The notes below the pieces were generated by a model, which saw only the letters and a list, made by a program, of their open reading frames with translations, searched no databases and had not been told where the DNA came from. This document shows, piece after piece, positions 4,312-63,609 of a stretch of DNA of 64,000 nucleotides; position 1 is the first letter of the stretch; every line of letters starts with the position of its first letter. Source of the DNA: a virus; IMG/VR virus record IMGVR_UViG_3300041409_000610, positions 62,001 through 126,000 of that record; one strand, given 5' to 3'. The position numbers were made by a program, and so were the translations under genes.

Positions 4312-6278
4312 CCCTCTCGCCTCCGGCCTTCAGCCCCGTGGACTTCGCAGCGTTCACGGGGCTGCCGGTTCCTGACCCCATCACCTTCGCGATCAGCCCG
4401 CGCTGGTGTGGCCGGGGGCAACTCTACCCGCGTCAGGCGACCTTGCTCAAGGTCATCTTCCTGCGCAACGACCTCCTCACCGAGTACGACCACATGGTCA
4501 TCGACGAGTGGGAGGACTCCTTCGATCGCCACGGGAACAACGGCATCGTGCCGAAGATCCGCCAGCGGATGGCCTCGCTCCGGCTCAAGGGCTACTTCTA
4601 CTTCCGCGAGGTCCTGCTGGTCCTCGGCCGCCGCGCCGGGAAGGGCTACGTCTCGGCGCTGGCCATGGCCTACGTGCTCTGGCGCTTCATGGCCAAGGGC
4701 GATCCCCAGGAGTACTACGGGATCGACCGCGACAAGCAGCTGGCGATGTTCATCTACGCCGGGAAGAAGCAGCAGGCCCGGGAGAACCTCTGGAAGGACG
4801 TCGTCAACGTCATCCAGGGCGCCCCGTGCTTCGCCAAGTACATCTCCCGGTCGCTCGGCGAGAACCTGACCATCTACGCCCCGCACGACTTCGTCCGGCT
4901 GCGGCGGCAGAACCAGCGCGGGATCAACACCGCGCGGGACATGGCGACCTTCACGATCCAGCCGAAGGAGGCCACGCTGATGTCCGCGCGTGGCCCGGCA
5001 TCCTTCGGGCTCGGCTTCGACGAGATGGCGCACGTGGTGCCCTCGGGCGCAGGGCGGTCGGCGGAAGAGGTCTACGGCAGCGCGACGCCGTCGCTCGACC
5101 AGTTCAAGATGGACGGCTTCATCATCGATCCGTCGAGCCCCTGGCAGCAGATCGGCCAGTTCTACGCGAACTGGGAGATGACGCTGGCCTTCGACGAGGA
5201 GGGCAACCCCGAGTACCCCGAGATGATGATGCTCCAGTTGGCCAGCTGGGAGATCTACTACGACTGGAAAGACGCGCACATGCTGCCCGTCTTCCCGGCG
5301 GAGTTCACCGGCGACCTCGGGGAGTACCTGGAGCGCCCGCACCCGAATTTCCAGCGGCTCAAGGGCGCCATCCAGGAGTACGACGAGCGGATGGAGAAGC
5401 TGGAGCGGGCCAACCCCGACACCTTCGCCGTCGAGCGGCGCTCGCACTGGCAGTCGGTCGTGGACGCCTACCTGGACCCGAAGAAGGTCGAGGCGATCTT
5501 CCAGAGCGATCTCGCGATGACCCGCACGGCCAAGAACCTCACGACGTTCTACAAAGGACACGCGGACCCATCGAAGGTCAACGACAACTTCGGCCTCGCG
5601 GTCGGCCACGCCGAGGAGCACGAGGACGGCTTCCTCCGTTGCCGCTTCGATCTGCTCCACCACTGGGATCCGGCCGAGTTCCCCGACCACACGATCGACT
5701 ACATCCAGGTCGTGGACGTCGAGCTGTGGGAGATCATCTGGGGCTTCAAGATCGACGAGTTCACCTTCGACCAGCACAACTCGGCCATGCCGATCCAGCG
5801 GCTCAACCGCAAGGTCCGGCAGAACCGCGCGCCGAAGCGCATGACGATCTTCGAGCAGAAGTCCGACGCCAAGCACAACTGGCAGGTGGCCGAGTGCTTC
5901 AAGGTCGCGATCAACCAGGGCTGGGTCGAGGCGCCCTGGTACGAGACCGCCGAGCTGGAGCTGAAGTTCCTCCAGCTGAAGACCACCGCGACCACCAACC
6001 GCGTCGTGCACCAGGACACCGGGCCCGTTGTCCATGACGACGTGGCCAGGTGCATGATGGAAGTGGTCTGGACCATCCTCGGCGAGCAGGTCCGGAACTG
6101 GCAGGCGGGCATGCTGCGCGAGATGAACATCGTGACCGGCCAGCAGGGCGGCTTCAACCCGTACCAGCGCCAGGAGGCCGACCGGCAGGTCTTCGACCAG
6201 CTGATCCCCGGCGGCCGGTCGCGGGTGCGCGCCGGAGGCCTGAACCCCGCGCGCAACCCGCACCGCCGGAGGCGTTGA
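4308..6278 (+). CDS. terL: Terminase large subunit
   Basis: Packaging motor ATPase and nuclease that moves DNA into the prohead. The Walker A variant LGRRAGKG lies at residues 106-113 (Lys112), with Walker B LGFDEM at Asp238-Glu239; the C-terminal half carries acidic residues expected of a terminase nuclease, including an HDDVAR motif near the end. 656 residues fits the family. The ATG at 4308 overlaps the upstream stop and opens the homologous-looking part; the in-frame extension to 3969 lies within the upstream gene and is rejected. Its TGA stop lies inside the -35 hexamer of the next promoter. Unusually, no portal gene follows. Confidence 0.95.
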   Translation: MTLSPPAFSPVDFAAFTGLPVPDPITFAISPRWCGRGQLYPRQATLLKVIFLRNDLLTEYDHMVIDEWEDSFDRHGNNGIVPKIRQRMASLRLKGYFYFREVLLVLGRRAGKGYVSALAMAYVLWRFMAKGDPQEYYGIDRDKQLAMFIYAGKKQQARENLWKDVVNVIQGAPCFAKYISRSLGENLTIYAPHDFVRLRRQNQRGINTARDMATFTIQPKEATLMSARGPASFGLGFDEMAHVVPSGAGRSAEEVYGSATPSLDQFKMDGFIIDPSSPWQQIGQFYANWEMTLAFDEEGNPEYPEMMMLQLASWEIYYDWKDAHMLPVFPAEFTGDLGEYLERPHPNFQRLKGAIQEYDERMEKLERANPDTFAVERRSHWQSVVDAYLDPKKVEAIFQSDLAMTRTAKNLTTFYKGHADPSKVNDNFGLAVGHAEEHEDGFLRCRFDLLHHWDPAEFPDHTIDYIQVVDVELWEIIWGFKIDEFTFDQHNSAMPIQRLNRKVRQNRAPKRMTIFEQKSDAKHNWQVAECFKVAINQGWVEAPWYETAELELKFLQLKTTATTNRVVHQDTGPVVHDDVARCMMEVVWTILGEQVRNWQAGMLREMNIVTGQQGGFNPYQRQEADRQVFDQLIPGGRSRVRAGGLNPARNPHRRRR

Positions 6279-6303
6279 CACGCACTACCCGGTTGGGTAG
6301 TGT
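6275..6303 (+). promoter_or_regulatory. Promoter with embedded palindromic operator (site 1)
   Basis: TTGACA (6275-6280), 17-base spacer, TAGTGT (6298-6303). The dyad CTACCC-GGTT-GGGTAG spans 6285-6300. The terminase stop codon lies in the -35. Drives the gene at 6344 through a CCGCACTGGAGG ribosome site. Confidence 0.85.
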
Positions 6304-6343
6304 TGGAGAGGTCAAGGAACACCGCCGCACTGGAGGCAAAGTC

Positions 6344-6547
6344 ATGGAAGCCACTGCCGTTCACCGGGACCGCGCTGCTCGTCATCACACCCACCACAAG
6401 ATCGTCTGCATCTCGTCCGCCCCCACCGCCGCAAGGACGCTCCAGCGTCGCTCGCGCCGGGCGGCGGAGCGGGCCATGTTGCTCGACCTCGTGGCGGAAG
6501 CGCTCGACGAGCGCTACGCGGTCCAGAACGAGGTGCCGAGCGAGTGA
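6344..6547 (+). CDS. Small basic protein, 67 aa
   Basis: First gene after promoter site 1. The ATG is placed by a GCACTGGAGG ribosome site 7 bases upstream; the longer frame from 6050 runs through the terminase and is rejected. His/Arg-rich N-terminus, helical C-terminus. Function unknown; ends in a GTGA overlap. Confidence 0.8.
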   Translation: MEATAVHRDRAARHHTHHKIVCISSAPTAARTLQRRSRRAAERAMLLDLVAEALDERYAVQNEVPSE

Positions 6548-6858
6548 AATCCAGCCTGCCGCCTTGCAAGAGGTGCGACTGGCCGATGGTCCCGGGGACG
6601 GTGGAAACTCAGCCGCCCCCGGGCTTCGTCGTGCACAAGTCCCGGCACCTCTGCCGCCGCTGCTTCGCCTGGGCCAGGGGGCACGGCGTGCTCGACGACT
6701 ATCCGACGGTCTACCGCCGCGCGGCCGAGGTCATCGAGGAGACCACCTTCCTGGCCGAGCAGGGCCTGAAGCGGATGGAGATCATCGTCAAGCTCGGGAT
6801 GAGCCGCTCGGCCTTCGAGCGGACGCACCAGCGCGCCGGTGTCCAGATGCCTCGTTGA
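6544..6858 (+). CDS. Zinc-ribbon and HTH-like protein, 104 aa
   Basis: GTG start in overlap. Two Cys pairs (Cys8/Cys11 and Cys37/Cys40) form a probable zinc ribbon, followed by a helical domain whose end (LGMSRSAFERTHQRAG) looks like a helix-turn-helix. Likely DNA-binding. Its TGA stop is part of the -35 of promoter site 2. Confidence 0.8.
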   Translation: MKSSLPPCKRCDWPMVPGTVETQPPPGFVVHKSRHLCRRCFAWARGHGVLDDYPTVYRRAAEVIEETTFLAEQGLKRMEIIVKLGMSRSAFERTHQRAGVQMPR

Positions 6859-6883
6859 CCTACCCTACCCATTCGGGTAGTAT
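6855..6883 (+). promoter_or_regulatory. Promoter with embedded palindromic operator (site 2)
   Basis: TTGACC (6855-6860), 17 bases, TAGTAT (6878-6883); dyad CTACCC-ATTC-GGGTAG at 6865-6880. One of the best -10 matches. The leader has CACCTGGAGG rather than the usual ribosome site. Drives 6917. Confidence 0.85.
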
Positions 6884-6916
6884 GAGTGGTGACCCGCCCA
6901 CCACCTGGAGGCTGCC

Positions 6917-10512: not shown

Positions 10513-10940
10513 GCGAGCCCGGCGGCGGAGTGAGCCTCTTCGATGTCCCGGAGAGGTTCCACTTCGTCGACCTGCTCAGCCTGCACGTGCGCGCCCGCCT
10601 GGACATCCCCGAGAACCAGGGCCTGCTGCCGCTGATGTGGCGGATCTCGGGCATCGGGCTGCCCGCGCTGACCTTCTACCCGCCGCCGGTGGTCGAGTGC
10701 CTCCGCGAGGAGCTGCACCGGCAGCATCCGTGGCTGGCGGGACTCCAGCTTCCCCGGGTCGCCTTCGGCCGCCAGCGCGTCGACTGGGCTTCCTTCTGGG
10801 TCTGGGTGGACGTCGTGCAGAACCGCGTGTGCCGCGAGCAGGGCATCGAGCCGGACGGCTTCCTGATCAAGGAGATCGACCGCGCCCTCCTGCCGCTGCC
10901 GAACGCGATCATCATCATCGAGGCCGAGGACGAGGGTTGA
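10509..10940 (+). CDS. Hypothetical protein, 143 aa
   Basis: ATG in overlap. Trp-rich centre (WASFWVWVDVV) and a hydrophobic run IIIIEAE near the C-terminus; not a clear membrane segment. Last gene of its unit; its TGA is inside the -35 of promoter site 3. Confidence 0.8.
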   Translation: MSEPGGGVSLFDVPERFHFVDLLSLHVRARLDIPENQGLLPLMWRISGIGLPALTFYPPPVVECLREELHRQHPWLAGLQLPRVAFGRQRVDWASFWVWVDVVQNRVCREQGIEPDGFLIKEIDRALLPLPNAIIIIEAEDEG

Positions 10941-10966
10941 CGTCACCCTACCCGAACGGGTAGTGT
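10937..10966 (+). promoter_or_regulatory. Promoter with embedded palindromic operator (site 3)
   Basis: TTGACG (10937-10942), 18 bases, TAGTGT (10961-10966); dyad CTACCC-GAAC-GGGTAG at 10948-10963. Leader includes CAGCACGAAG and CCGCACCGGAGG. Drives 11005. Confidence 0.8.
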
Positions 10967-11697: not shown

Positions 11698-12063
11698 ATG
11701 GCGGAACAAGTGATCCGTCGCCGGGTCGACGACCTGGAGCGCCAGCGCGGCAACCTCGACATCGCGGCGGACGAGGAGATCGTCTTCGGCATCGACGGCA
11801 CGAGCTACGTCATCGACCTCTCCGACCGCAACGCCAAGGACCTGCGTGCGGCGCTGATCGAGTACGTCACGGCGGCGCGGCCGCTGATCGACGTGGAGGC
11901 CCGCCGGGACATGACCCCGGCGCAGGCCAAGCGCGCCGAGCTGGCCGATGTTCGCGCCTGGGCCAACCAGCAGGGCATGAGGGTCAGCACCCGGGGGAAG
12001 GTCCCGACACCCGTGCTGGACGCCTTCGAGCGGTCCGTGGGCCCTCTCAAGCACCGTCAATAG
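11698..12063 (+). CDS. lsr2: Lsr2-like nucleoid-associated protein, 121 aa
   Basis: Lsr2 bridges AT-rich DNA and silences foreign genes in actinobacteria; phage copies may counter host Lsr2 or silence phage genes. The N-terminal oligomerisation domain is recognisable (VDDLE, EIVFGIDGTSYVIDLS, residues 10-42), and the C-terminal binding domain has VRAWANQQG followed by VSTRGKVP (residues 96-103), where the usual RGR minor-groove hook is RGK. The ATG at 11698 has an AAGGGAGG site; an upstream frame start at 11623 would add a tail not seen in the family. It has its own promoter and terminator. Confidence 0.9.
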   Translation: MAEQVIRRRVDDLERQRGNLDIAADEEIVFGIDGTSYVIDLSDRNAKDLRAALIEYVTAARPLIDVEARRDMTPAQAKRAELADVRAWANQQGMRVSTRGKVPTPVLDAFERSVGPLKHRQ

Positions 12064-13017: not shown

Positions 13018-13047
13018 TTGCGCCTACCCTACCCATTCGGGTACTGT
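13018..13047 (+). promoter_or_regulatory. Promoter with embedded palindromic operator (site 4)
   Basis: TTGCGC (13018-13023), 18 bases, TACTGT (13042-13047); dyad CTACCC-ATTC-GGGTAC at 13029-13044, with one mismatch in the last base. Drives 13083. Confidence 0.75.
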
Positions 13048-13319: not shown

Positions 13320-13571
13320 ATGAACGAGCGCATCGGACAGTTCGCGTGGAGCGACTTCGCCGCGTGCAAGGACGAGGACCCGGAGCTGTTCTTCCCGGTC
13401 TCCGAGTTCGGGCCCGGCGAGCGGCAGACGGCGCAGGCGAAGGCGGTCTGCGGCACCTGCCCGGTCAGGGAGGTCTGCCTGGGCTTCGCCCTGGAGAACG
13501 GTCTCGACCACGGCATCTTCGGCGGCACGACCCCCGACGAGCGTCGCAAGCTCACCCGCTCCCGCGTCTGA
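13320..13571 (+). CDS. whiB: WhiB-family iron-sulfur regulator, 83 aa
   Basis: WhiB proteins carry a [4Fe-4S] cluster and act with the main sigma factor at actinobacterial promoters. All four Cys are present: Cys16, Cys44-x2-Cys47-x5-Cys53, followed by the turn G65-IFGG and a basic tail (DERRKLTRSRV). Length fits the family. ATG after GAGAGGAGG. Phage WhiB proteins can dominate host WhiB function, so this is a candidate partner for the TTGACN promoters in this window, which is inference. Followed by a strong terminator. Confidence 0.95.
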   Translation: MNERIGQFAWSDFAACKDEDPELFFPVSEFGPGERQTAQAKAVCGTCPVREVCLGFALENGLDHGIFGGTTPDERRKLTRSRV

Positions 13572-13849: not shown

Positions 13850-13956
13850 TCGGCTTCGCGCGTCTCGTGCGGCGTCTCGTCCGGGCCTACCGCGAGGGCA
13901 AGCTGTCCAACCGCGAGCGCTCGATACGGCAGGACCGCCGCCGGAAGCGCTTGTGA
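13846..13956 (+). CDS. Tiny Arg-rich protein, 36 aa
   Basis: GTG start in overlap. More than a third of residues are Arg or Lys (ending RQDRRRKRL), so it may bind nucleic acid. Its stop lies in the -35 region of promoter site 5. Confidence 0.6.
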   Translation: MIGFARLVRRLVRAYREGKLSNRERSIRQDRRRKRL

Positions 13957-13979
13957 TCACCTACCCAATCGGGTAGTAT
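13951..13979 (+). promoter_or_regulatory. Promoter with embedded palindromic operator (site 5)
   Basis: TTGTGA (13951-13956), 17 bases, TAGTAT (13974-13979); dyad CTACCC-AATC-GGGTAG at 13961-13976. Leader CCGCACTGGAGG. Drives the 14016-18264 operon, the longest overlapping unit under such a site in this part. Confidence 0.8.
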
Positions 13980-18675: not shown

Positions 18676-20733
18676 CTACTCCGCCATCGCCTCGCCCTGG
18701 ATGCTGGCGATCACCACCGGCCCCTCGATCTCCGTACGGGGCTCGGGCACCGGCGTGGTGGTCGTGACAGCGGCCGCCTTCCAGAAGCCCTCGCCGCCGC
18801 CGTTGCGGATGACCAGCTCGCCCTTCTCCAGCTTCTCCAGGTGCCGGTAGATCGTCGCCCGGCTGGTACCGGGCCCGGACCCGCCGGTCTCCTCCTTGGC
18901 CCGGGTCAGGACGTCGGAGATGGTCTCCACCTTCGCCCCGTCCTTGGCCTCGACCCGGAGGTACTCCAGGACCGCGTACTCGGGACCGAAGGTCTCCTCC
19001 GCGATGACTTCACCCTCGACGGTCTCGGGCTCGACCTCGCCGGTGAGGATGGCCCACGCGGTCGGTTCCAGATAGACCTCGCGGTACCCCTTCGGCGCCA
19101 CCTTCTTGACGAGGTCCCGGCGGTCCTTGTTCTCGACCCAGTACCCCTTGCCCGGGTCCGGAGTCCCGTGCTCGTCGTCCTTCAGGAGGAACTGGCCGTC
19201 CCGTAGGTTCGTCGAGTTCCAGCCCCGGTGCATGTCGTTCTGCCAGAGGTTCTTCGACTGCTGCGGGTCCAGGCTCAGACCCACGATCGCGCGCAGCTGG
19301 GCCTGCATCTCCTTCGAGCCCAGGTCCGCCTTGGTCCCGTTCTGAGAGGCGATGACGATCCGGACCCCGCACTTGCGCGCCTTCTTCGCGATGCGCGACA
19401 GCAGGGCGATGACGTAGGCCAGGTAGTTGCCGTCGGCCTTGCCGTCTTCGTTGTACTTCGTGGTCGCCTTCGCCTCGGCCAGCAGGTCCGGGAACTCGTC
19501 GATCACCAGGATCAGCCACGGGGTCTTACGCGAGGGCTCGAAGCTGTCCTCGGCGTCATCGTCGTCTTCCGAGGCCAGACCCAGCCGGGCCTCCCGGTCC
19601 CGGATCACGCCGAAGACGCGCTCCAGGATGATGATCGCCGCGTCGATCTCCTCGGCGAGCGGGAGCGCCAGGGTCTTGCGCCAGACGCCCAGGGTCGCCC
19701 CGGCGGCCATGTCGATGCCGACCACCACGACGTCGCAGAAGCTGACCAGCCACGTCATCAGTGAGTGCAGCCAGCCCGACTTGCCCGAGCCGGACGCGCC
19801 GACGACGAGCGTGTGCTGGAGCTGGTACATGATGCGTTCGCCGTGGGCGTACAGACCCATGGCGAAGCGCTTGCCCATCGACTTCAGGCTGGTCTCGCCC
19901 GGCTTGACGTCGCCGGTGAAGACCGGGTGCGCGATCTTGCCGCTCCAGGGGTCCTTCGGCAGGAACGTGATCATCACATTGCGAGCCTGATCCTCGTCCG
20001 GCGCGATGAACACCGACTGCGGCCGCATGCCGAAGAAGCTCGCCAGCGCGTCACGTAGGTGCGCCACCGAGTCCACGGTGTGGCCCTCGCCGAGCCGGAT
20101 CTTCAGCTTCGAGGTCTTCCCGTACGCCCGCGCGTCGACCACCTTCGAGTTGACCAGCGGCACGAGCCGGGGCGGGCAGGTCGTCTTGTCGGACAGCTTC
20201 GGCCACTTCTTCGCGAATCGGTCGGCGCGCCCGGCGACCCGCACCCGGCGGTGGTACCACCAGGCGCCGCCGAAGCCCGCCACGCCGAGCTGCCACATCC
20301 AGCCCGAGAACGAGCTGGAGCCGTCCACGATCCGCAGGACCATGTAGGTGCCGATGTAGGTCGTCAAGGTGCCGAAGTAGACCCGCTCCACGAGCCGGTC
20401 CAGCACCCCGTCCTTGCCCTTGTCGAGCCCGCTGGGCACCAACGCCATCGCCACCCGGGACCAGCGGTCCGACAGCTTCGGCCCGAAGATCGCCAGCAGC
20501 AGGCCGCCGACCGGCACGGTCAGCACGACCGGCCACCACTGCGGGATCTGCCAGCGCCAGATGACGCAGGTGAGGAAGATCAGGAACCCGAACCACAGCG
20601 GGGTGAGCGCGCGCCGCCAGCGGAACATCAGCCTGCGGCCGCGCTTCCACCCCCGCCCGATCCCCTCGGCAACGAGGACTCCGCCCGCCGTGCCGAGGAT
20701 CTCCTTCACCACCCCCTTTGACTCTCCGCTCAC
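18676..20733 (-). CDS. TraB/FtsK-like DNA translocase, 685 aa
   Basis: FtsK/SpoIIIE-type motor ATPase. N-terminal hydrophobic segments (about 30-75, with two more near 120-160) anchor it; the motor has Walker A GASGSGKS (Lys318) and Walker B LILVIDEF (Asp412-Glu413), plus an ASQ sensor-like IVIASQNG. The C-terminus is a winged-helix-like domain (SRATIYRHLEKLEKGELV), like the gamma domain of FtsK and the DNA-recognition domain of Streptomyces plasmid TraB. The GTG at 20733 has GGAGGAG; the frame extending to 21378 lies in the upstream gene. Next to a SpdB-like gene, it looks like a conjugative-plasmid module rather than a packaging motor. Confidence 0.9.
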   Translation of the reverse strand: MSGESKGVVKEILGTAGGVLVAEGIGRGWKRGRRLMFRWRRALTPLWFGFLIFLTCVIWRWQIPQWWPVVLTVPVGGLLLAIFGPKLSDRWSRVAMALVPSGLDKGKDGVLDRLVERVYFGTLTTYIGTYMVLRIVDGSSSFSGWMWQLGVAGFGGAWWYHRRVRVAGRADRFAKKWPKLSDKTTCPPRLVPLVNSKVVDARAYGKTSKLKIRLGEGHTVDSVAHLRDALASFFGMRPQSVFIAPDEDQARNVMITFLPKDPWSGKIAHPVFTGDVKPGETSLKSMGKRFAMGLYAHGERIMYQLQHTLVVGASGSGKSGWLHSLMTWLVSFCDVVVVGIDMAAGATLGVWRKTLALPLAEEIDAAIIILERVFGVIRDREARLGLASEDDDDAEDSFEPSRKTPWLILVIDEFPDLLAEAKATTKYNEDGKADGNYLAYVIALLSRIAKKARKCGVRIVIASQNGTKADLGSKEMQAQLRAIVGLSLDPQQSKNLWQNDMHRGWNSTNLRDGQFLLKDDEHGTPDPGKGYWVENKDRRDLVKKVAPKGYREVYLEPTAWAILTGEVEPETVEGEVIAEETFGPEYAVLEYLRVEAKDGAKVETISDVLTRAKEETGGSGPGTSRATIYRHLEKLEKGELVIRNGGGEGFWKAAAVTTTTPVPEPRTEIEGPVVIASIQGEAMAE

Positions 20734-21802: not shown

Positions 21803-21817
21803 GACCGTAGGATACTC

Positions 21818-21836
21818 ACCCCGTAGGCTACGGGGT
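21818..21836. promoter_or_regulatory. Divergent-promoter palindrome at the head of the transfer-like operon
   Basis: A 19-bp dyad with 9-bp arms (ACCCCGTAG, centre G, CTACGGGGT) in the 80-base gap between divergent genes. On the minus strand it fills the spacer between TTACCC and TATCCT. Different from the shared dyad, so a separate repressor is likely, as with Kor-type control of plasmid tra genes. Confidence 0.6.
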
Positions 21837-21882
21837 AACATACCCTGCGAGAACGCAATCCTGAACCACCCCTGGAGGGATC

Positions 21883-23501: not shown

Positions 23502-23673
23502 ACCGGACATCGGCACCGAGGTGGCGGGTATCGTGCCGGAGACCGGCGACCGGGTGGAGGGCACCTACCTGGGCAGCTTCTCCCACGGCCGCCACGGCAT
23601 CGACATGGCCGCACTCATCGTGGACGGCAAGCGCGTGGCGGTGGAGTACGACTCTCTGGAGCTGTCGAGTTGA
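23494..23673 (+). CDS. Small beta-rich protein, 59 aa
   Basis: GTG start overlapping the previous gene by 8 bases. Pattern of short strands (EVAGIVPETG, VEGTYLGSF, ALIVDGKRVAVEYD) suggests a small barrel. Its TGA stop is part of the -35 of promoter site 6. Confidence 0.75.
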   Translation: MREPDIGTEVAGIVPETGDRVEGTYLGSFSHGRHGIDMAALIVDGKRVAVEYDSLELSS

Positions 23674-23699
23674 CACTACCCATTCGGGTAGGGTACCGT
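23670..23699 (+). promoter_or_regulatory. Promoter with palindromic operator, shifted register (site 6)
   Basis: TTGACA (23670-23675) runs straight into the dyad CTACCC-ATTC-GGGTAG (23676-23691); -10 TACCGT (23694-23699) lies beyond it, giving an 18-base spacer. Drives 23738. Confidence 0.75.
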
Positions 23700-24378: not shown

Positions 24379-24407
24379 TTGACACTACCCGAATGGGTAG
24401 GTAGGCT
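24379..24407 (+). promoter_or_regulatory. Promoter with palindromic operator, shifted register (site 7)
   Basis: TTGACA (24379-24384) fused to the dyad CTACCC-GAAT-GGGTAG (24385-24400); 17-base spacer to TAGGCT (24402-24407). Leader has CAGCACGAAG and CCGCACCGGAGG. Drives 24450. Confidence 0.8.
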
Positions 24408-25135: not shown

Positions 25136-25164
25136 TTGACCCACACTACCTAAATGGGTAGTGT
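25136..25164 (+). promoter_or_regulatory. Promoter with embedded palindromic operator (site 8)
   Basis: TTGACC (25136-25141), 17 bases, TAGTGT (25159-25164); dyad CTACCT-AAAT-GGGTAG at 25146-25161. Flanking bases extend the symmetry to ACCCACAC...GTGTGGGT. Leader CTTGTCAGCAAAG. Drives ardC. Confidence 0.85.
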
Positions 25165-25206: not shown

Positions 25207-26154
25207 ATGGCCGCGAAGACCACCGCCACCCGCAAGCCCAAGGTCGATGTCTACGACGTCGTCACCACCAAGATCCTGGCCGCGCTGGAGAACGGCACCG
25301 CGCCGTGGAGCAAGCCGTGGGACAGCGTCACCGGCGCGCCGAAGTCGTTCTCCTCGCGCAAGGCCTACCGGGGCGTCAACGCCATCCTGCTGGGCCTGGA
25401 GCAGGCCGAGAAGAACTACCGCAGCGCGTACTGGCTGACCTTCAACCAGATGGCCAAGCTTGGCGGCCGCCTGAAGGGCGAGAAGGGCACGCAGAAGGGC
25501 ACCCTGGTCACCTTCTGGAAGCTGCTGCCGATCGAGGACGAGGCGACCGGCAAGAAGAAGATGATCCCGCTGCTCAAGCACTTCTACCTGTTCAACCTGG
25601 ACCAGACCGAGGGCATCGAGAAGCTGCCCAAGGACGCCTTCCCGGTCGCCCGCCCGGTCCCCAGTGCCGAAGAGCGCCACGCGGCCGCGCAGTCCGTGGT
25701 GGACGCCTGGGCCGCCAAGCCGGTCATTGAGCACGGCGGCGACTCGGCCCACTTCACCTGGTCCACGGACGTGCTCACGATGCCGCCGGTGGAGAGCTTC
25801 AAGGGGCTCGACGAGTACCACGCGACCCTCTTCCACGAGCTGACCCACTCGACCGCCGCCGAGCACCGCCTGGACCGTAAGGAGAGCCGGGGCAACGCCT
25901 TCGGCAGCCACGCCTACGGCCGCGAGGAGCTGATCGCCGAGATGGGCGCCGCGTTCCTCTGCGCCGAGACCGGCATCCAGGCCACTCTCGACAACTCGGC
26001 CGCCTACCTGGCCTCCTGGATCAAGACGATCAAGGAGGACCCGCGCGCGATCATCGTGGCCGCCGGGAAGGCCCAGAAGGCCGCTGACATGATCCTCGGC
26101 CGCGAGCAGGCCAAGACCGAGGAGACCGACGAGCAGGCCACCACGGCCGCCTGA
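25207..26154 (+). CDS. ardC: ArdC-type anti-restriction protein, 315 aa
   Basis: ArdC proteins bind single-stranded DNA and protect incoming DNA against restriction. The N-terminal ArdC domain shows VYDVVTTKILAALENGTAPW (15-34) and YRGVNAILL; the C-terminal zincin part has HELTH (His210, Glu211, His214) with a downstream YGREELIAEMGAAF that supplies a likely third ligand (Glu245). Length matches the family. Under promoter site 8, so probably expressed at the time of DNA entry. It fits with the plasmid-like transfer genes. Confidence 0.92.
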   Translation: MAAKTTATRKPKVDVYDVVTTKILAALENGTAPWSKPWDSVTGAPKSFSSRKAYRGVNAILLGLEQAEKNYRSAYWLTFNQMAKLGGRLKGEKGTQKGTLVTFWKLLPIEDEATGKKKMIPLLKHFYLFNLDQTEGIEKLPKDAFPVARPVPSAEERHAAAQSVVDAWAAKPVIEHGGDSAHFTWSTDVLTMPPVESFKGLDEYHATLFHELTHSTAAEHRLDRKESRGNAFGSHAYGREELIAEMGAAFLCAETGIQATLDNSAAYLASWIKTIKEDPRAIIVAAGKAQKAADMILGREQAKTEETDEQATTAA

Positions 26155-26395: not shown

Positions 26396-26417
26396 TTGAC
26401 CCTACCCGATCGGGTAG
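26396..26417 (+). promoter_or_regulatory. Palindromic operator with incomplete promoter (site 9)
   Basis: TTGACC (26396-26401) fused to CTACCC-GATC-GGGTAG (26402-26417). Unlike the other sites, no TAnnnT lies 17-18 bases downstream; TAGGGT at 26415 is only 13 bases away. Leader CTACCTGGAGG. Upstream of 26452. Confidence 0.6.
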
Positions 26418-27237: not shown

Positions 27238-27266
27238 TTGACCCACACTACCCAGACGGGTAGTGT
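27238..27266 (+). promoter_or_regulatory. Promoter with embedded palindromic operator (site 10)
   Basis: TTGACC (27238-27243), 17 bases, TAGTGT (27261-27266); dyad CTACCC-AGAC-GGGTAG at 27248-27263, extended to ACCCACAC...GTGTGGGT. Same core and flanks as site 11. Drives 27303. Confidence 0.85.
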
Positions 27267-27709: not shown

Positions 27710-27738
27710 TTGACCCACACTACCCAGACGGGTAGTGT
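27710..27738 (+). promoter_or_regulatory. Promoter with embedded palindromic operator (site 11)
   Basis: TTGACC (27710-27715), 17 bases, TAGTGT (27733-27738); dyad CTACCC-AGAC-GGGTAG at 27720-27735. The region is a near copy of site 10, including CTTGTCAGTTA in the leader, which suggests recent duplication. Drives 27777. Confidence 0.85.
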
Positions 27739-28700: not shown

Positions 28701-28969
28701 GCGACGTCTGGCGCAGTCCCATGCACGACATCGTGCGACCGATCCTGTTGATCACGGAGCACACCGGCATCCCCATGGTCCGCAAGGACGACGAGGGCTG
28801 GGCAATCCGCGAGAGCCTCTCGTTGGACCTCGACGAGTGGATGCCGGTCACGTTCGCGCCGACCGCCGCTGCGCTCGACGACATGCTCGCGTGTGGCGAG
28901 ATCGTCATCGACGAGCAGCACACCGCCCATGTGACCTACGGACCCTGGGGGTTGACCCACACTACCTGA
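28697..28969 (+). CDS. Hypothetical protein, 90 aa
   Basis: GTG in overlap. Alpha/beta, acidic. Its stop codon lies inside the centre of the site 12 palindrome, so the last residues (LTHTT) are dictated by promoter sequence. Confidence 0.75.
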   Translation: MSDVWRSPMHDIVRPILLITEHTGIPMVRKDDEGWAIRESLSLDLDEWMPVTFAPTAAALDDMLACGEIVIDEQHTAHVTYGPWGLTHTT

Positions 28970-28980
28970 ACGGGTAGTGT
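28952..28980 (+). promoter_or_regulatory. Promoter with embedded palindromic operator (site 12)
   Basis: TTGACC (28952-28957), 17 bases, TAGTGT (28975-28980); dyad CTACCT-GAAC-GGGTAG at 28962-28977 with extended symmetry. Overlaps the end of the upstream coding region. Drives 29020. Confidence 0.85.
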
Positions 28981-30039: not shown

Positions 30040-30069
30040 TGGACACTACCCGGATAGGTAGTGTAGAGT
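30040..30069 (+). promoter_or_regulatory. Promoter with palindromic operator, shifted register (site 13)
   Basis: TGGACA (30040-30045) fused to CTACCC-GGAT-AGGTAG (30046-30061, one arm mismatch); 18-base spacer to TAGAGT (30064-30069). Leader has CATGTCAGCACGGAA. Drives 30110. Confidence 0.75.
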
Positions 30070-36028: not shown

Positions 36029-36498
36029 TCATCGAAGACCGTTTCCTCGACGTCCTGCGCGGCCACCGCACGCCGCAGGAGATGGCCGTCACCGACCTGT
36101 GGACCGGCCACTGGGTCGTCAAGGGTCTGGACGCTGCCACGGCCTCTCAGGTGGCCCAGGAGGCCAACGAGAGCTTCCGTGCGGCCGCCTCCCGCCGCAT
36201 CGCCCAGGCGCCCGATGAGCTTGAGCTGGAGGTGCTGCTGGAGATGCGCAAGGGCACGCTGCTGGAGCACAACGCGTGGTCGTGGCGCTTCTACGAGCGG
36301 ATGGGCACCAGCGAGTGGCGTGCGCTGCCCTCGGCGGTGCGCACCATGCTGTGGCGCTGGCGCCAGGACGACAGCCTCGCGCTCAAGTCCAAGGTGATCT
36401 TCGACGGTGTGAGGAAGCCGCCGATCGGCTGTTTCCAGCAGCTCATGTTGTCGCCCGTTTCCGCTGCATGGCTTGACGCACACTACCCGAACGGGTAG
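36025..36498 (+). CDS. Hypothetical protein ending in the operator, 157 aa
   Basis: GTG in overlap. Helical with many Trp (WSWRFYERMGTSEWR, TMLWRWRQD). The last codons (HYPNG and stop) are the site 18 palindrome itself, and the TAG of the right arm is the stop codon. Function unknown. Confidence 0.75.
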   Translation: MIIEDRFLDVLRGHRTPQEMAVTDLWTGHWVVKGLDAATASQVAQEANESFRAAASRRIAQAPDELELEVLLEMRKGTLLEHNAWSWRFYERMGTSEWRALPSAVRTMLWRWRQDDSLALKSKVIFDGVRKPPIGCFQQLMLSPVSAAWLDAHYPNG

Positions 36499-36501
36499 GG
36501 T
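36473..36501 (+). promoter_or_regulatory. Promoter with embedded palindromic operator (site 18)
   Basis: TTGACG (36473-36478), 17 bases, TAGGGT (36496-36501); dyad CTACCC-GAAC-GGGTAG at 36483-36498. Lies inside the 3' end of the upstream gene. Drives 36538. Confidence 0.85.
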
Positions 36502-37228: not shown

Positions 37229-37258
37229 TTGCGCCCACCCTACCCGATCGGGTAGGGT
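37229..37258 (+). promoter_or_regulatory. Promoter with embedded palindromic operator (site 19)
   Basis: TTGCGC (37229-37234), 18 bases, TAGGGT (37253-37258); dyad CTACCC-GATC-GGGTAG at 37240-37255, flanked by CCCAC/GTGGG. Perfectly symmetric over its core. Drives 37298. Confidence 0.85.
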
Positions 37259-41242: not shown

Positions 41243-41271
41243 TTGACCGACCCTACCCACTCGGGTAGGGT
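41243..41271 (+). promoter_or_regulatory. Promoter with embedded palindromic operator (site 20)
   Basis: TTGACC (41243-41248), 17 bases, TAGGGT (41266-41271); dyad CTACCC-ACTC-GGGTAG at 41253-41268. Leader CCGCATCGGAGG. Drives the lipoprotein gene at 41311 and the operon behind it. Confidence 0.85.
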
Positions 41272-44512: not shown

Positions 44513-44541
44513 TGGTCAGAACCTACCTAATCGGGTAGTCT
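44513..44541 (+). promoter_or_regulatory. Promoter with embedded palindromic operator (site 21)
   Basis: TGGTCA (44513-44518), 17 bases, TAGTCT (44536-44541); dyad CTACCT-AATC-GGGTAG at 44523-44538. Weakest -35 of the set. Drives 44581. Confidence 0.7.
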
Positions 44542-44580: not shown

Positions 44581-45390
44581 TTGAGCAACCTGAGGGCCAA
44601 GAAGATGCCGGTCACACCGCAGCTGGCGAAGAAGTGGCTGCTCACGAATAGCGACAACCGCTCACCGTCGCCTTCGTGGGTCGGCAAGATGGCCCGGGAC
44701 ATGCGGAACAACCAGTTCCCCAACATCGGCGAGACGATCAAGTTCGACGAGGACGGTCACCTGATCGACGGCCAGCACCGGCTGGAAGCGCTGGTCGAGG
44801 CGGGCGTGACGGTCGAGTTCTTCATCATCGAGGGCATCCCGCGCGAAGACCGCTTCAAGATGGACCGGAACCGGCGCCGGACCGCGTCCGACGAGCTGAA
44901 GATGGGCCACGACGTCCCGTCGGCGAAATCGGCCTCGGCCGTGGCCCGGCTCGCGCTGCTCTGGGAGGTCGAAGAAGTCCGGGGCGAGGTCTACAAGCCC
45001 ACCGACACCGAGATCGTCGACTACGTCGTGGCGAACCGCGACGCGATCGGCCAGGCAGTGCGTTACGGCATGGGGCTGCGCAACGAGATCGGCGGGCTCC
45101 CGGCGGCGTTCGGCTGCCTGTACTTCCTCACCTTCCGGATCGACGCGGCCACGGCCCTGGAGTTCTGGGAAGGCGTCATGCGCGGCGAGGGGCTGCACCA
45201 GGGCGATCCGGAGCTGGCCCTGCGGGCGTTGATCATCCGCCACGCGCAGAAGGGCGGCGAGAAGCCGGTGAAGCCGTTCCTGGCCGCCGGAACCAAGGCC
45301 TGGAACGCCAAGCGCGAGGGGAAGAAGATCAAGGTCCTCGTGCTCAAGGGGCTGCCCGAGCTGACCGACGAGCACTTCAAGCTGGCGTGA
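44581..45390 (+). CDS. ParB-like DGQHR protein, 269 aa
   Basis: TTG start 6 bases after GGAGG; no better start fits. The N-terminal domain has the pattern of ParB-like phage proteins: LLTNSDNRSPS, a dM..NQFP helix, then LIDGQHRLEALVEAG (Asp63 to Arg67) and FKMDRNRRRTASDEL. Such domains can bind nucleotide or DNA or act as nucleases; which applies here is unknown. The C-terminal part is helical. Confidence 0.85.
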   Translation: MSNLRAKKMPVTPQLAKKWLLTNSDNRSPSPSWVGKMARDMRNNQFPNIGETIKFDEDGHLIDGQHRLEALVEAGVTVEFFIIEGIPREDRFKMDRNRRRTASDELKMGHDVPSAKSASAVARLALLWEVEEVRGEVYKPTDTEIVDYVVANRDAIGQAVRYGMGLRNEIGGLPAAFGCLYFLTFRIDAATALEFWEGVMRGEGLHQGDPELALRALIIRHAQKGGEKPVKPFLAAGTKAWNAKREGKKIKVLVLKGLPELTDEHFKLA

Positions 45391-47788: not shown

Positions 47789-47817
47789 TTGAGCCGATCT
47801 ACCCGAACGGGTAGCGT
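47789..47817 (+). promoter_or_regulatory. Promoter with embedded palindromic operator (site 22)
   Basis: TTGAGC (47789-47794), 17 bases, TAGCGT (47812-47817); dyad CTACCC-GAAC-GGGTAG at 47799-47814. Leader ACCACACTGGAGG. Drives 47862. Confidence 0.8.
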
Positions 47818-47861: not shown

Positions 47862-48152
47862 ATGAGCGAGACGCGCGAGATCGCGTGGACGCCCGAGCGT
47901 CAGGAGACGCTGGTGGCAGCCGAGGACGGCGACCTGCATTCCTTCAACCCGGGCGGCCTGGGCGTCAGTTACCTCCAGCGCGAGGTGTTCGTCCACAAGC
48001 CGCAGGACCGGCACCCCGTGCTGCTGCTGCTCGCGGCCGAGGCCATCGTGCACAGCGAGCACATCATGGTCGGGCACCAGGCCCGCCGCCGTCTGCGGGT
48101 CACCTCGAAGGGCGCCGACCTGCTGGCGAAGTGGCGCGCCCGGCGCGGGTAG
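47862..48152 (+). CDS. Hypothetical protein, 96 aa
   Basis: ATG after CACTGGAGG. Second half is helical and Arg-rich (ARRRLRVTSKGADLLAKWRA), with a look of a winged helix end. Its stop touches the -35 of site 23. Confidence 0.8.
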   Translation: MSETREIAWTPERQETLVAAEDGDLHSFNPGGLGVSYLQREVFVHKPQDRHPVLLLLAAEAIVHSEHIMVGHQARRRLRVTSKGADLLAKWRARRG

Positions 48153-48178
48153 ACAACCACTACCCGAACGGGTAGTAT
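48150..48178 (+). promoter_or_regulatory. Promoter with embedded palindromic operator (site 23)
   Basis: TAGACA (48150-48155), 17 bases, TAGTAT (48173-48178); dyad CTACCC-GAAC-GGGTAG at 48160-48175. The upstream stop codon TAG is the start of the -35. Drives 48215. Confidence 0.8.
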
Positions 48179-51155: not shown

Positions 51156-51327
51156 TCCCTTTCTGGAGGACATCTCGGCAGCCGAGCGCGAGTGGCTGAC
51201 CTGGGTCGAAGAGCAGCGCCGGAGGATCCCTCTGACGCCGGGCTGGTTCAGGGCTCGCAAACAGCGACGCCGGGCCTGGGATCGCTTCCTCACCGCCTAC
51301 CTTCGAGCGGGTGGACGGTCTCGTTGA
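51148..51327 (+). CDS. Small basic protein, 59 aa
   Basis: ATG inside the end of the previous gene. Basic, with Arg clusters (EEQRRRIPL, ARKQRRRAWDRF). Its TGA stop is in the -35 of site 24. Confidence 0.75.
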   Translation: MTDPFLEDISAAEREWLTWVEEQRRRIPLTPGWFRARKQRRRAWDRFLTAYLRAGGRSR

Positions 51328-51352
51328 CCAACCCTACCCGTTCGGGTAGTCT
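51324..51352 (+). promoter_or_regulatory. Promoter with embedded palindromic operator (site 24)
   Basis: TTGACC (51324-51329), 17 bases, TAGTCT (51347-51352); dyad CTACCC-GTTC-GGGTAG at 51334-51349. Leader CCGCACTGGAGG. Drives 51381. Confidence 0.85.
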
Positions 51353-52867: not shown

Positions 52868-52896
52868 TTGACCCACACTACCCACTCGGGTAGTGT
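52868..52896 (+). promoter_or_regulatory. Promoter with embedded palindromic operator (site 25)
   Basis: TTGACC (52868-52873), 17 bases, TAGTGT (52891-52896); dyad CTACCC-ACTC-GGGTAG at 52878-52893, extended to ACCCACAC...GTGTGGGT. Leader CTTGTCAGTTCAAGG. Drives 52934. Confidence 0.85.
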
Positions 52897-54857: not shown

Positions 54858-55072
54858 TGGCCACCTGCGCACTCATGCTCTGCGGCGTCCGGTGCTCGTG
54901 CGCGGGCACCAACTCGTCCCACCCGACCGTCGAGGACCAGCACGAGCAGCTGGTCGAGGACCTGATGGCGGGCGGGCTGTCCCGCAGGCACGCGAGCATC
55001 GCGGCCGTGACCGTCAAGGCCAGCTACTTCATCGAGCGCAAGGAGCGGCCGCACCCGCGCCGCCGCGTTTGA
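54857..55072 (+). CDS. Hypothetical protein, 71 aa
   Basis: ATG overlaps the upstream stop. Four Cys near the start (MATCALMLCGVRCSC), then helices, the second with GLSRRHASIAAVTVKASYF. Its TGA stop is in the -35 of site 26. Confidence 0.75.
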   Translation: MATCALMLCGVRCSCAGTNSSHPTVEDQHEQLVEDLMAGGLSRRHASIAAVTVKASYFIERKERPHPRRRV

Positions 55073-55097
55073 CCGACACTACTCGATCGAGTAGTGT
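55069..55097 (+). promoter_or_regulatory. Promoter with symmetric variant operator (site 26)
   Basis: TTGACC (55069-55074), 17 bases, TAGTGT (55092-55097). The dyad is CTACTC-GATC-GAGTAG (55079-55094): both arms differ from the common site by the same change, so symmetry is kept. Leader CCTGCATCGGAAGG. Drives 55132. Confidence 0.85.
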
Positions 55098-56286: not shown

Positions 56287-56315
56287 TTGCCCCACACTAC
56301 TCGATCGGGTAGTGT
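56287..56315 (+). promoter_or_regulatory. Promoter with half-variant operator (site 27)
   Basis: TTGCCC (56287-56292), 17 bases, TAGTGT (56310-56315); dyad CTACTC-GATC-GGGTAG at 56297-56312. Left arm like site 26, right arm like the common site. Flanks CCCACA/TGTGGG extend the symmetry. Drives 56349. Confidence 0.82.
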
Positions 56316-59705: not shown

Positions 59706-59709
59706 CCGG

Positions 59710-59739
59710 TTGACCCTACCCTTCTGGGTAGGGTAACCT
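59710..59739 (+). promoter_or_regulatory. Promoter with palindromic operator, shifted register (site 28)
   Basis: TTGACC (59710-59715) fused to CTACCC-TTCT-GGGTAG (59716-59731); 18-base spacer to TAACCT (59734-59739). Leader CCGCACTGGAGG. Drives 59773. Confidence 0.78.
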
Positions 59740-61579: not shown

Positions 61580-61599
61580 CTGTCCACATTGGAGGACAC

Positions 61600-61992
61600 A
61601 TGGGTTACTACAGCAGCCTGGAAGGCCGCATCGAGATCGATCCGCCGCTGCCCTGGAGCGCGGTCGTGGGCAGCGAGTACGTGGATTCCCTCGGCGCGTT
61701 GCGGGGTGTCTGGTTCGAGCTGGCCGTGAAGACGCGGACCGAGGGTGACGACGAGATCATCACGCGCACGGCCGTCGCGGTCGTCGGCCCCGAGGAGCGG
61801 CGCAAGCACTACAAGCTGGAGAACCACCTGAAGGAGATCGCCGAGCTGATCGGCCCCGACCGCGACACGGTGGGCTGGCTGGTGCGCGAGGGCGAGGAGC
61901 AGGGCGACATCGTGCGATACGGCATCCGCCGGGGCAAGCTGATCATCGAGAAGGCGGACGTCCGCTGGCCGGACGGCACCTCGGTCTACTGA
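61600..61992 (+). CDS. Hypothetical protein, 130 aa
   Basis: ATG after CATTGGAGG. Alternating strands and a helix (ENHLKEIAELIG); no motif. Last + gene before a convergent gene. Confidence 0.8.
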   Translation: MGYYSSLEGRIEIDPPLPWSAVVGSEYVDSLGALRGVWFELAVKTRTEGDDEIITRTAVAVVGPEERRKHYKLENHLKEIAELIGPDRDTVGWLVREGEEQGDIVRYGIRRGKLIIEKADVRWPDGTSVY

Positions 61993-62004
61993 CCCCGGAC
62001 ACAA

Positions 62005-62058
62005 CGAACCCCCGCGCGGAGAGCACTGTCCTAGGGAGACAGATCCGGCGGGGGTTCG
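62005..62058. terminator. Hairpin between convergent genes
   Basis: 11-bp outer stem (62005-62015 with 62048-62058) over an inner CTGTC/GACAG stem, in the gap between genes ending at 61992 and 62102. Could serve both strands. Confidence 0.8.
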
Positions 62059-62101
62059 CTGCGTTGAGGCGGGCCCCTAACCCACGGGTCAGGGTAGCCG
62101 A

Positions 62102-62629
62102 TCAGGCCTGCTTGCGGGCCGCACCCTCGCTGACGTTCACCACGGCGACGTCGCCCGCGACCACGTCCACCGCGTGGGTCACCGTGATGCTGCCCAGGGT
62201 GATCGTGCCGACCGCCGAGCCCGGCATCCCGGCGACGACCGTGGCCTGGCGCGGGTCGTTCGAGTCGATCCGGTAGGTGAAGACGCTCTCGTCCGAGCTG
62301 ACGAACGCCGGGTCGTCGGAGGTGTCGCCCGCCTTGTCGAGGACCTCGGCGCCTTTGGCGTCGGCAGCGGTGAGCGAGACGTCGAATTCCTCGTCGTCGT
62401 GGATCTGGGCCATGGCAGTACCAGCCTTTCCGGTGGGTTCCAGAGTGTTCTGCTTCACGATGGGGCCGAAGGCCACTGTTGCCGTCGCGGGGCCGGTGAG
62501 GAAGGCGTAGAAGCGCACCGCCGTGGCGAGCACCGCATCTCGGTCTTCCTCGAACTGTTTGTCGCCGAACGATCCGGCGTGCAGCTTGACGGCCTCGGTC
62601 AGGGCCAGCGCCCGTTCCGGGTTCACCAT
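62102..62629 (-). CDS. Ig-like-domain protein on the minus strand, 175 aa
   Basis: The C-terminal 100 residues (from HDDEEFDVSLTAADAKGAEV through VVAGMPGSAVGTITL) have the strand pattern and AGxxGxA/T turn of bacterial Ig-like domains. The N-terminal 70 residues are a helical domain. Ig-like domains often decorate virions, but this gene stands alone and reversed among accessory genes. ATG with AGGGGG upstream. Confidence 0.82.
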   Translation of the reverse strand: MVNPERALALTEAVKLHAGSFGDKQFEEDRDAVLATAVRFYAFLTGPATATVAFGPIVKQNTLEPTGKAGTAMAQIHDDEEFDVSLTAADAKGAEVLDKAGDTSDDPAFVSSDESVFTYRIDSNDPRQATVVAGMPGSAVGTITLGSITVTHAVDVVAGDVAVVNVSEGAARKQA

Positions 62630-62694: not shown

Positions 62695-62724
62695 TTGCCA
62701 CATCTCTACCCGAACGGGTAGTGT
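62695..62724 (+). promoter_or_regulatory. Promoter with embedded palindromic operator (site 29)
   Basis: TTGCCA (62695-62700), 18 bases, TAGTGT (62719-62724); dyad CTACCC-GAAC-GGGTAG at 62706-62721. Lies between the divergent minus-strand gene and 62754. Leader CCGCACTGGAGG. Confidence 0.82.
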
Positions 62725-62753
62725 TGCGGGACCACCGCACTGGAGGAGGCCTC

Positions 62754-63485
62754 ATGGGCTGCGACATCCACATGTACGCCGAGAAGAAGATCGGCGACAC
62801 CTGGTACCCGTTCACCCCGCCCGAGCACAACAAGTGGTACGAGCCGGGCGACGAGAAGGAGGGTGGGCCCGCCAGCCGCCCGCTGGCCCTCAACCACGAC
62901 GACGTCATCTGGGAGGACCGGAACTACCGCGTCTTCTCGATGCTCGCGGGCGTGCGCAACGGCATCGGGTTCGCCAGCGTCAAGACCGGCGAGCCGATCA
63001 CTCCGATCTCCAAGCCGCGCGGTGTGCCGGAGGACGTCAGCGCCGAGGTGAAAACCGAGATCGACGAGTGGGGCTGCGATGGCCACAGCCACTCGTGGCT
63101 CACCCTCAAGGAGCTGGAGGCCGTTCCCTGGGACCACAGGCTGATTCGCCAGTGCGGTCACGTGGACGCCCGGCAGTTCCAGACCTACGAGAAGGACGGC
63201 GAGCCGGACTCCTGGGGTCAGCCGCTCAGCTTCCGGGGCTTGCAGGTCGTGACCAATGACGAGATGCGTGAGCTGATCGCGGCCCACGGGATCGAAGTGC
63301 CCGAGGACTCGTGGCACGATTCGAAGATCAACGGAGTCGCCTACCTGACCGAGGTCGCCTGGTCGCACACCTGGGCCGAGGTCGCCCGGGGGCTGCTGGC
63401 CAGCATGGCCAACCTCAAGATCGCCGGGGCGGCCGAGGGCTTCGAGCCGGACCAGCTGCGGTACATCTTCTTTTTCGACAACTGA
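62754..63485 (+). CDS. MGCDIH-type protein, 243 aa
   Basis: ATG after CACTGGAGGAGG. Starts MGCDIHMYAEKK, followed by WYPFTPPEHN, a YRVFSMLAGVRNG segment and GHSHSWLTLKEL; proteins with this start recur in phages and their function is not known to me. Single gene under site 29. Confidence 0.85.
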   Translation: MGCDIHMYAEKKIGDTWYPFTPPEHNKWYEPGDEKEGGPASRPLALNHDDVIWEDRNYRVFSMLAGVRNGIGFASVKTGEPITPISKPRGVPEDVSAEVKTEIDEWGCDGHSHSWLTLKELEAVPWDHRLIRQCGHVDARQFQTYEKDGEPDSWGQPLSFRGLQVVTNDEMRELIAAHGIEVPEDSWHDSKINGVAYLTEVAWSHTWAEVARGLLASMANLKIAGAAEGFEPDQLRYIFFFDN

Positions 63486-63540
63486 TCTTTTCTCATCCGG
63501 GGATCGCCCGCTGCTGCAACAGCGGCCCGGAGGTCGAGGA

Positions 63541-63571
63541 CCCGCGTCTGCTTGGGCGAGCCGGACGCGGG
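63541..63571 (+). terminator. Terminator
   Basis: 8-bp stem (63541-63548 with 63564-63571) downstream of a CCGCTG/CAGCGG hairpin near 63509-63525, after the stop at 63485. Confidence 0.7.
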
Positions 63572-63580
63572 CCCTCCCGC

Positions 63581-63609
63581 TTGCGTGACCCTACCCGATC
63601 GGGTAGGGT
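63581..63609 (+). promoter_or_regulatory. Promoter with embedded palindromic operator (site 30)
   Basis: TTGCGT (63581-63586), 17 bases, TAGGGT (63604-63609); dyad CTACCC-GATC-GGGTAG at 63591-63606. Leader CCGCACTGGAGG. Drives 63647. Confidence 0.82.

Follow-up and report, generated by a model that had tools for sequence, protein, structure and literature searches.

The same short palindrome, CTACCC-N4-GGGTAG, lies within nearly every recognisable host-type promoter of an actinobacterial phage with a 155-kb genome and of the phages closely related to it. When we scanned the window (the whole stretch of 64,000 nt analysed here) for this dyad with 0 to 2 mismatches, we recovered the same 30 places at gene starts that the first-pass annotation had listed, while shuffled versions of the window held a mean of 1.96 dyads and at most 7. 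At all 30 sites, a predicted + strand gene begins 31 to 49 bp downstream of the dyad start. The first-pass annotation had proposed extending the motif search to the whole genome and related phages. We found about 40 sites genome-wide (37 with no more than one mismatch, compared with 0 to 1 in Markov copies). One of them (contig 134237) is upstream of a tRNA cluster, which fits a promoter element and not an RBS element. The density of dyads within genes, which had been predicted to be lower than outside them, was indeed so: of 26 exact copies genome-wide, 25 lie in non-coding DNA, which makes up only 9.3% of the genome (p ~4e-25). A tandem dyad inside a gene (contig 52893) was left out of the counts.

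The dyads occupy two registers relative to the promoter elements. In register A, seen at 23 of the 30 window sites as counted before, the right arm of the dyad makes the -10, supplying its TAG. In register B, seen at six of the remaining seven (dyads at 23676, 24385, 30046, 31864, 32358, and 59716), a TTGACA, TTGACC, TTGCAC, or TGGACA lies directly against the left arm, and the -10 follows 17 to 18 bp on, 4 to 5 bp beyond the dyad. The dyad at 26402 is the only one in the window without a good -10. The sites are given below by window position, with the promoter written as -35, spacing, and -10.

6275-6303, + strand: register A, TTGACA-17-TAGTGT; dyad 6285-6300
6855-6883, + strand: register A, TTGACC-17-TAGTAT; dyad 6865-6880
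10937-10966, + strand: register A, TTGACG-18-TAGTGT; dyad 10948-10963
13018-13047, + strand: register A, TTGCGC-18-TACTGT; dyad 13029-13044 (1 change)
13951-13979, + strand: register A, TTGTGA-17-TAGTAT; dyad 13961-13976
23670-23699, + strand: register B, TTGACA-18-TACCGT; dyad 23676-23691; a register A promoter is readable on the - strand too
24379-24407, + strand: register B, TTGACA-17-TAGGCT; dyad 24385-24400
25136-25164, + strand: register A, TTGACC-17-TAGTGT; dyad 25146-25161; 14-bp hairpin arms; upstream of an ArdC-like gene
26396-26417, + strand: abutting TTGACC without a good -10; dyad 26402-26417; 30-bp perfect palindrome CTTGACC...GGTCAAG
27238-27266, + strand: register A, TTGACC-17-TAGTGT; dyad 27248-27263; 14-bp arms
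27710-27738, + strand: register A, TTGACC-17-TAGTGT; dyad 27720-27735; 14-bp arms
28952-28980, + strand: register A, TTGACC-17-TAGTGT; dyad 28962-28977; long arms
30040-30069, + strand: register B, TGGACA-18-TAGAGT; dyad 30046-30061
31858-31887, + strand: register B, TTGACA-18-TAGGGT; dyad 31864-31879
32353-32381, + strand: register B, TTGCAC-17-TAATCT; dyad 32358-32373
34353-34381, + strand: register A, TTGACT-17-TAGTGT; dyad 34363-34378 (2 changes)
35409-35437, + strand: register A, TTGACC-17-TAGGGT; dyad 35419-35434; long arms
36473-36501, + strand: register A, TTGACG-17-TAGGGT; dyad 36483-36498
37229-37258, + strand: register A, TTGCGC-18-TAGGGT; dyad 37240-37255; long arms
41243-41271, + strand: register A, TTGACC-17-TAGGGT; dyad 41253-41268
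44513-44541, + strand: register A, TGGTCA-17-TAGTCT; dyad 44523-44538; upstream of a ParB-like GQHRL gene
47789-47817, + strand: register A, TTGAGC-17-TAGCGT; dyad 47799-47814
48150-48178, + strand: register A, TAGACA-17-TAGTAT; dyad 48160-48175
51324-51352, + strand: register A, TTGACC-17-TAGTCT; dyad 51334-51349
52868-52896, + strand: register A, TTGACC-17-TAGTGT; dyad 52878-52893; 14-bp arms
55069-55097, + strand: register A, TTGACC-17-TAGTGT; dyad 55079-55094; CTACTC/GAGTAG, a symmetric double change
56287-56315, + strand: register A, TTGCCC-17-TAGTGT; dyad 56297-56312; long arms; upstream of a GmrSD_N-domain gene
59710-59739, + strand: register B, TTGACC-18-TAACCT; dyad 59716-59731
62695-62724, + strand: register A, TTGCCA-18-TAGTGT; dyad 62706-62721
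63581-63609, + strand: register A, TTGCGT-17-TAGGGT; dyad 63591-63606

Relative to the dyad, the -35 starts at -10/-11 or -6/-5 and at almost no other position, and 94 of 102 sites have TAnnnT at position 14 of the dyad core. A strict promoter points toward the gene at 45 of 98 sites and away from it at 1 of 98. Genome-wide, the + strand has 18 strict TTGAC-17/18-TAnnnT promoters, each of which holds a dyad. The near-constant leader and ribosome site described by the first-pass annotation also recurred: by a loose pattern, a leader/RBS of the CCGCAYYGGAGG type follows 29 of the 30 window dyads, and 28 of 32 + strand copies of CCGCACYGGAGG in the genome come after a dyad.

The placement of every site on the + strand holds for the genes of the window and not for the dyad itself, as this is palindromic; strand is a property of the genes. 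Indeed, the cassette faces minus-strand genes at contig 39155 and in relatives. The two larger claims, that the dyad is integrated into promoters and that the operons form one regulon, drew strong support at the sequence level and reach further than first stated, given the second register, the genome-wide sites, and their retention in related phages. That the regulon takes in most accessory operons is true among genes with a recognisable promoter; of all same-strand gaps of at least 50 nt in the accessory region, 35 of 58 have a dyad.

The same cassette is present in four related IMG/VR contigs (G001, G002, G003, and L039) and not in dyad-less relatives. A TTGACN4-dyad pattern, which has the wrong -35 spacing, matched in unrelated contigs only. 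Against phage records, blastn of an 8-kb stretch returned no DNA relatives, and blastn of one cassette returned only weak partial matches, most of them in haloarchaeal viruses and in a Clavibacter phage.

Conservation extends beyond the dyad core. Register A sites conserve A(-3) and register B sites conserve T(+3), and since neither position is required by a promoter element, the putative operator is about 22 bp long, with the consensus ACM-CTACCC-RWWY-GGGTAG-KRT. The dyad centre is RNNY at 88 of 98 sites and YNNR at none of the 98. The operator overlaps the -10 in register A and the -35 in register B.

We propose that the cassette is a host-type (sigma-A/70-like) promoter carrying an operator inside its 17 to 18 bp spacer. 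As the best account of these sites, we infer that a dimeric protein on the operator, at about -17 to -23, would exclude RNA polymerase, so that a single protein could turn down some 40 accessory operons together, most simply as an early-gene shut-off during the lytic cycle. With the candidate regulator described below, we hold this repressor reading with slightly better than even confidence.

The best candidate for the regulator is gp250, a single-domain GerE/LuxR-type protein of 90 residues encoded outside the window (contig 142,092-142,364). It matches PF00196 at 44.5 bits (cut-off 23.5), and its predicted structure is a four-helix fold (core pLDDT >90) with fold matches to DNA-bound LiaR, GerE, and NarL. 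By analogy with such homologues, gp250 would bind an inverted repeat as a dimer. GerE gene and dyads occur together in G000, G002, G003, and G007, which are all four dyad-bearing contigs covering the gp250 locus, while six dyad-less relatives of full length had nothing that matched gp250 by tblastn. A variant dyad precedes the gene and is conserved in all four contigs; through it, gp250 may control its own gene as well. GerE-domain genes are also present without the CTACCC-N4-GGGTAG dyad in G021 and G024, and the recognition helix of the G021 protein differs. The geometry of the phage dyad equals the 6-4-6 inverted repeat of ComA, whose site is two hexamers with a 4-nt spacer (PMC4797271), and its half-site, TACCCRW, is similar to the heptamer TACYYMT of NarL (PMC4886647). 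However, the ComA, NarL, and GerE operators belong to host regulons, and those of ComA are placed upstream of where RNA polymerase binds, whereas the phage dyads are inside the spacer.

The same operator might instead serve gp69, gp79, or a dimeric regulator of the host, which we consider unlikely. Both phage proteins are encoded in G001 and G002 and missing from six dyad-less relatives, and so fit the presence/absence pattern as far as contig fragments can test it. gp69 has two or three HTH regions, with matches to HTH_28 and Sigma70_r4, but its own gene lacks a dyad. gp79 has one weak HTH match, and a 6-4-6 dyad is not known as a typical site for either type of HTH. With regard to a host protein, TTGACN5-dyad gave 11 scattered, non-actinobacterial single matches in 84,980 prokaryote genomes, where simple base counting predicts about 30; as this does not exceed chance, no host regulon of the TTGAC-dyad form was seen. 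Lsr2, an HTH_17 protein, and two ParB-like proteins were rejected as regulators because their relatives occur in dyad-less phages too. WhiB, searched by family, had no match in three dyad-less relatives.

At about a quarter of the sites, the arms reach about 14 bp with compensatory changes. The stem is lengthened by at least 6 Watson-Crick pairs at 22 of 98 sites, compared with 1.8 on permutation, and flank pairs co-vary out to -8, ending at the TT of the -35. The 8 nt after the stem contain more T at long-stem sites (3.2 versus 1.3; p ~5e-8), which mostly start 15 to 28 nt downstream of a stop codon, and at four core-only sites a second, near-perfect hairpin, distinct from the dyad, abuts the -35 or lies within a few bases of it. 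All of this favours an RNA hairpin as the selected element, terminating read-through from the upstream operon (or acting as a processing site), with the promoter overlapping it for compactness. For the sites as a whole, we regard this as quite improbable: at 53 sites the stem gains no more than 2 pairs and is weak (mean -6.6 kcal/mol), the core sequence is conserved beyond mere pairing, an RNA would give no reason for the RWWY centre or for the two registers against the -35/-10, and the tails are not true U tracts. A protein operator alone, on the other hand, leaves the outer-arm covariation unexplained. The long arms suggest a second role as terminator hairpins, one that probably applies to a subset of sites alongside the operator. 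Tentatively, and with some doubt, we envisage a cassette of 30 to 40 bp that would combine three functions: promoter for the operon that follows, operator for a genome-wide GerE-type switch, and, at sites with arms of about 14 bp, terminator for the operon before it. If so, accessory genes could join or leave as insulated, automatically regulated modules.

It is very unlikely that the binder is an activator that turns the operons on through promoter remodelling or contact with sigma. GerE/ComA/NarL-type proteins are commonly activators, ComA among them (PMC4797271), but good -35 hexamers and a normal spacing of 17 to 18 bp are already present here, so that realignment is unneeded, and a dyad centre near -17 or -23 is the usual position for repression. 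We also rejected the idea of hairpin promoters of the N4 type, served by a virion RNA polymerase, as a normal -35/-10 is present and no gene is large enough (longest product, 1,629 aa).

Large actinophages carry at least 100 small accessory genes, the timing of which is little understood; those of this phage include ArdC-like anti-restriction, predicted Thoeris-inhibitor, and predicted RecBCD-inhibitor genes. One operator in effectively every recognisable host-type promoter offers a direct, testable handle on this accessory regulon, and, under the repressor reading, a small phage protein of the GerE type would act as a global switch for early genes. The existence of two registers and of sites with long hairpin arms suggests that promoter, operator, and possibly terminator can be compressed into a single palindrome.

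The first-pass annotation named cluster A and cluster K mycobacteriophages as precedents; both bear comparison, and the phiC31/L5 operators and the Corndog dyads also belong among the nearest systems. Cluster A stoperators are likewise repeated regulatory sites across a phage genome, but they are 13-bp, asymmetric, monomer-bound, and orientation-dependent (PMC9283540), whereas the phage sites are palindromic and within promoters. Cluster K SAS/ESAS are likewise found at gene starts, roughly half of them having an inverted repeat, the ESAS being 17-bp imperfect repeats with 4 to 13 bp spacers beside a translation-start motif; the available text of that report describes no promoter integration (PMC3203893). 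The near-constant RBS leader is a likeness to cluster K, but the phage arms are 6 bp with a fixed N4, at the -35/-10, and are not of the ESAS form. Cluster O (Corndog) has a 17-bp dyad, TGTTCGG-N3-CCGAACA, in 34 copies per genome, presumed to be a dimer site; about one-third are in coding sequence and most are away from promoters, which led its authors to doubt a role in initiation (PMC4351075). The phage dyad differs in sequence and spacing, and its exact copies are almost all non-coding, at promoters. In phiC31/L5-type systems, 18 to 30 repressor sites are dispersed over an actinophage genome (PMC4557955). Site sequences aside, the present phage is alike in its many dispersed sites, including all strict + strand promoters; it differs in that its site is palindromic and lies in the spacer of about 40 promoters, and in that its candidate regulator is of the GerE type. 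We found no integrase match among about 220 scanned, mostly non-structural phage proteins. The dyads are thus of a known kind, the dispersed phage operators of phiC31 and L5; what is new is their integration into promoters and the probable GerE-type regulator.

All 30 dyads (CTACCC-N4-GGGTAG) that the first-pass annotation had placed at gene starts in the window were recovered at their positions, where about 2 were expected. Across the whole record (155,347 bp, 67.6% G+C, the window being its positions 62,001-126,000), we found 37 dyads with at most one change and 40 sites that look like cassettes, that is, -35/-10 promoters with the dyad in the spacer. Exact copies were non-coding in 25 of 26 cases. 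All cassettes fell between 68 and 143 kb of the contig (the whole record) except a single one at contig 39,155, which points to a minus-strand gene, and the structural genes (contig 1-36 kb) held no dyads other than two-mismatch matches within genes. Further arrangements were observed:

Contig 130886-130918 (L011:10886-10918): tandem dyads with a 1-bp gap preceding a gene, a doubled operator
G002 (a dyad-bearing relative) 18845-18877: a similar tandem pair
Window 21803-21882: a divergent gene pair that lacks the usual dyad and carries a different palindrome, ACCCCGTAGGCTACGGGGT

Pooling 98 sites from this phage and its relatives revealed two registers of promoter and dyad. At 78 sites (register A), the -35-like hexamer starts 10-11 bases 5' of the dyad, whose right arm supplies the TAG of the -10, while at 20 sites (register B) the hexamer starts mostly 5-6 bases 5' of the dyad, so that the left arm adjoins the -35 and the -10 lies another 4-5 bp downstream. 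Of 102 sites, 94 have a TAnnnT that starts at core position 14. Spacers measure mostly 17-18 bp in either register, so the dyad stays in the spacer and the promoter shifts around it. A(-3) and T(+3) are conserved even in the register where the promoter elements do not require them, and the operator is therefore best read as about 22 bp. Strict promoters faced the gene at 45 sites versus 1 facing away, and the dyad was present in every strict + strand promoter of the genome (18/18) and in 15 of 16 looser ones. The contig 134,237 cassette lies about 250 bp upstream of a tRNA cluster (Phe, Trp, Lys; contig 134237-135009), which fits a promoter rather than a translation signal.

The same cassettes occur in the IMG/VR contigs G001 (49 kb), G002 (150 kb), G003 (41 kb), and L039, with a few in G007. 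Further relatives recruited through the gene-260 protein (34-63% identity, several full length) had no dyad, nor did G011, recruited by a 53%-identical terminase. The close fragments G012 and G013 hold 0-1 dyads; judging from their location next to gene 260, they probably represent the structural region, which is dyad-free in this phage also. A purpose-made simple gene caller predicted 265 genes, 252 on the + strand. The virion and DNA polymerase genes are about 30% identical to those of large actinophages (Myrna, Phabba, Pupper, Streptomyces phages), making this phage a distant relative of the Myrna type, and a blastn search of 50,697 phage records with one stretch as query found nothing that matched at the DNA level. 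Other features are as follows:

Window 11698-12063: Lsr2-like protein encoded by the phage and shared with G001 and G002
Window 13320-13571: WhiB-like protein of the phage, present too in G001 and G002, unmatched in G011, G014, and G026
Window 44581-45390 and contig 136801-137622: two ParB-like paralogues (DGQHRL, ~270 aa)
Window 25207-26154: ArdC-like, probable counter-defence gene
Among the proteins of window 37298-63482 (right half): a Tad3-like and a T7 gp5.9-like one, probable counter-defence
Window 56349: GmrSD_N-domain protein, probable counter-defence
Contig 151643-155347 (final 3.7 kb): no confident genes

A Pfam scan of nearly all non-structural proteins identified gp250, a 90-aa GerE-domain protein beyond the window (contig 142,092-142,364), which is the favoured candidate regulator. 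It is present in all four dyad-bearing records spanning its region (G000, G002, G003, G007), of which G003 and G007 are fragments and which, as relatives, are not independent samples, and tblastn against six dyad-less relatives of full length found nothing related to it. Only six proteins are common to G002, G003, and G007 yet missing from those six (2, 3, 4, 240, 250, and a 39-aa frame that is probably spurious), and gp250 is the sole one in which a DNA-binding domain was found. G021 and G024 have GerE-domain genes without the dyad; the recognition helix of the G021 protein differs. In 4/4 records the gp250 gene is preceded by a degenerate dyad that is conserved and has a TAnnnT of its own, as autoregulation would predict. 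The AlphaFold model has a confident helical core whose best fold matches are LuxR-family proteins, among them DNA-bound LiaR and NarL, and the invariant Lys of the recognition helix corresponds to NarL K188. Because G003 and G007 are fragments, gp69 and gp79 are still candidates; gp69 (contig 61700-62389, 229 aa, +22 charge, two or three HTH regions), which of the records compared only G001 and G002 share with this phage, is a second candidate.

A promoter this close to consensus and normally spaced should fire unaided, and a dimer bound at -17 or -23 would mask it, which favours repression. In the scheme that we infer for binding, sign, and timing, early operons would fire at entry, gp250 would build up through the variant operator of its gene, and the accumulated protein would shut down the whole set. 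No integrase was detected among the Pfam-scanned, mostly non-structural proteins, which makes a switch that times the lytic cycle likelier than immunity in lysogens.

Some dyads may also act as terminators. Complementarity of the arm flanks was bimodal, with 44 sites adding no Watson-Crick pairs and 22 adding at least 6 (1.8 with flanks permuted); counting G-U pairs, the long-arm sites number 25. In register A, flank pairs co-vary at 7 of the first 8 positions and end at the TT of the -35. Long-arm sites mostly begin 15-28 nt past a stop codon, and the DNA behind them is T-richer. Four cassettes without the extension have a separate near-perfect hairpin of at least 10 bp that abuts the -35 or lies a few bases from it:

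Contig 138727
Contig 142435
G002 11724
G002 26483

Most simply read, these boundaries are places where transcription from upstream has to stop, through either a separate hairpin or an extended dyad. Long arms could also arise when imperfect palindromes undergo mutational correction, and sites in related phages are not independent of one another, so we advance termination as a hypothesis.

The dyad geometry is that of the ComA site (PMC4797271), and its half-site resembles the NarL one closely (PMC4886647). Dispersed phage operators were already known from phiC31 and L5 (PMC4557955) and cluster A (PMC9283540), unexplained repeated dyads from Corndog (PMC4351075), and start-associated repeats from cluster K (PMC3203893). 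Within the open-access literature searched, what is new is a dyad embedded, in two registers, within nearly all host-type promoters, the leader common to the cassettes, a likely GerE-type regulator, and a possible terminator role for a subset of dyads.
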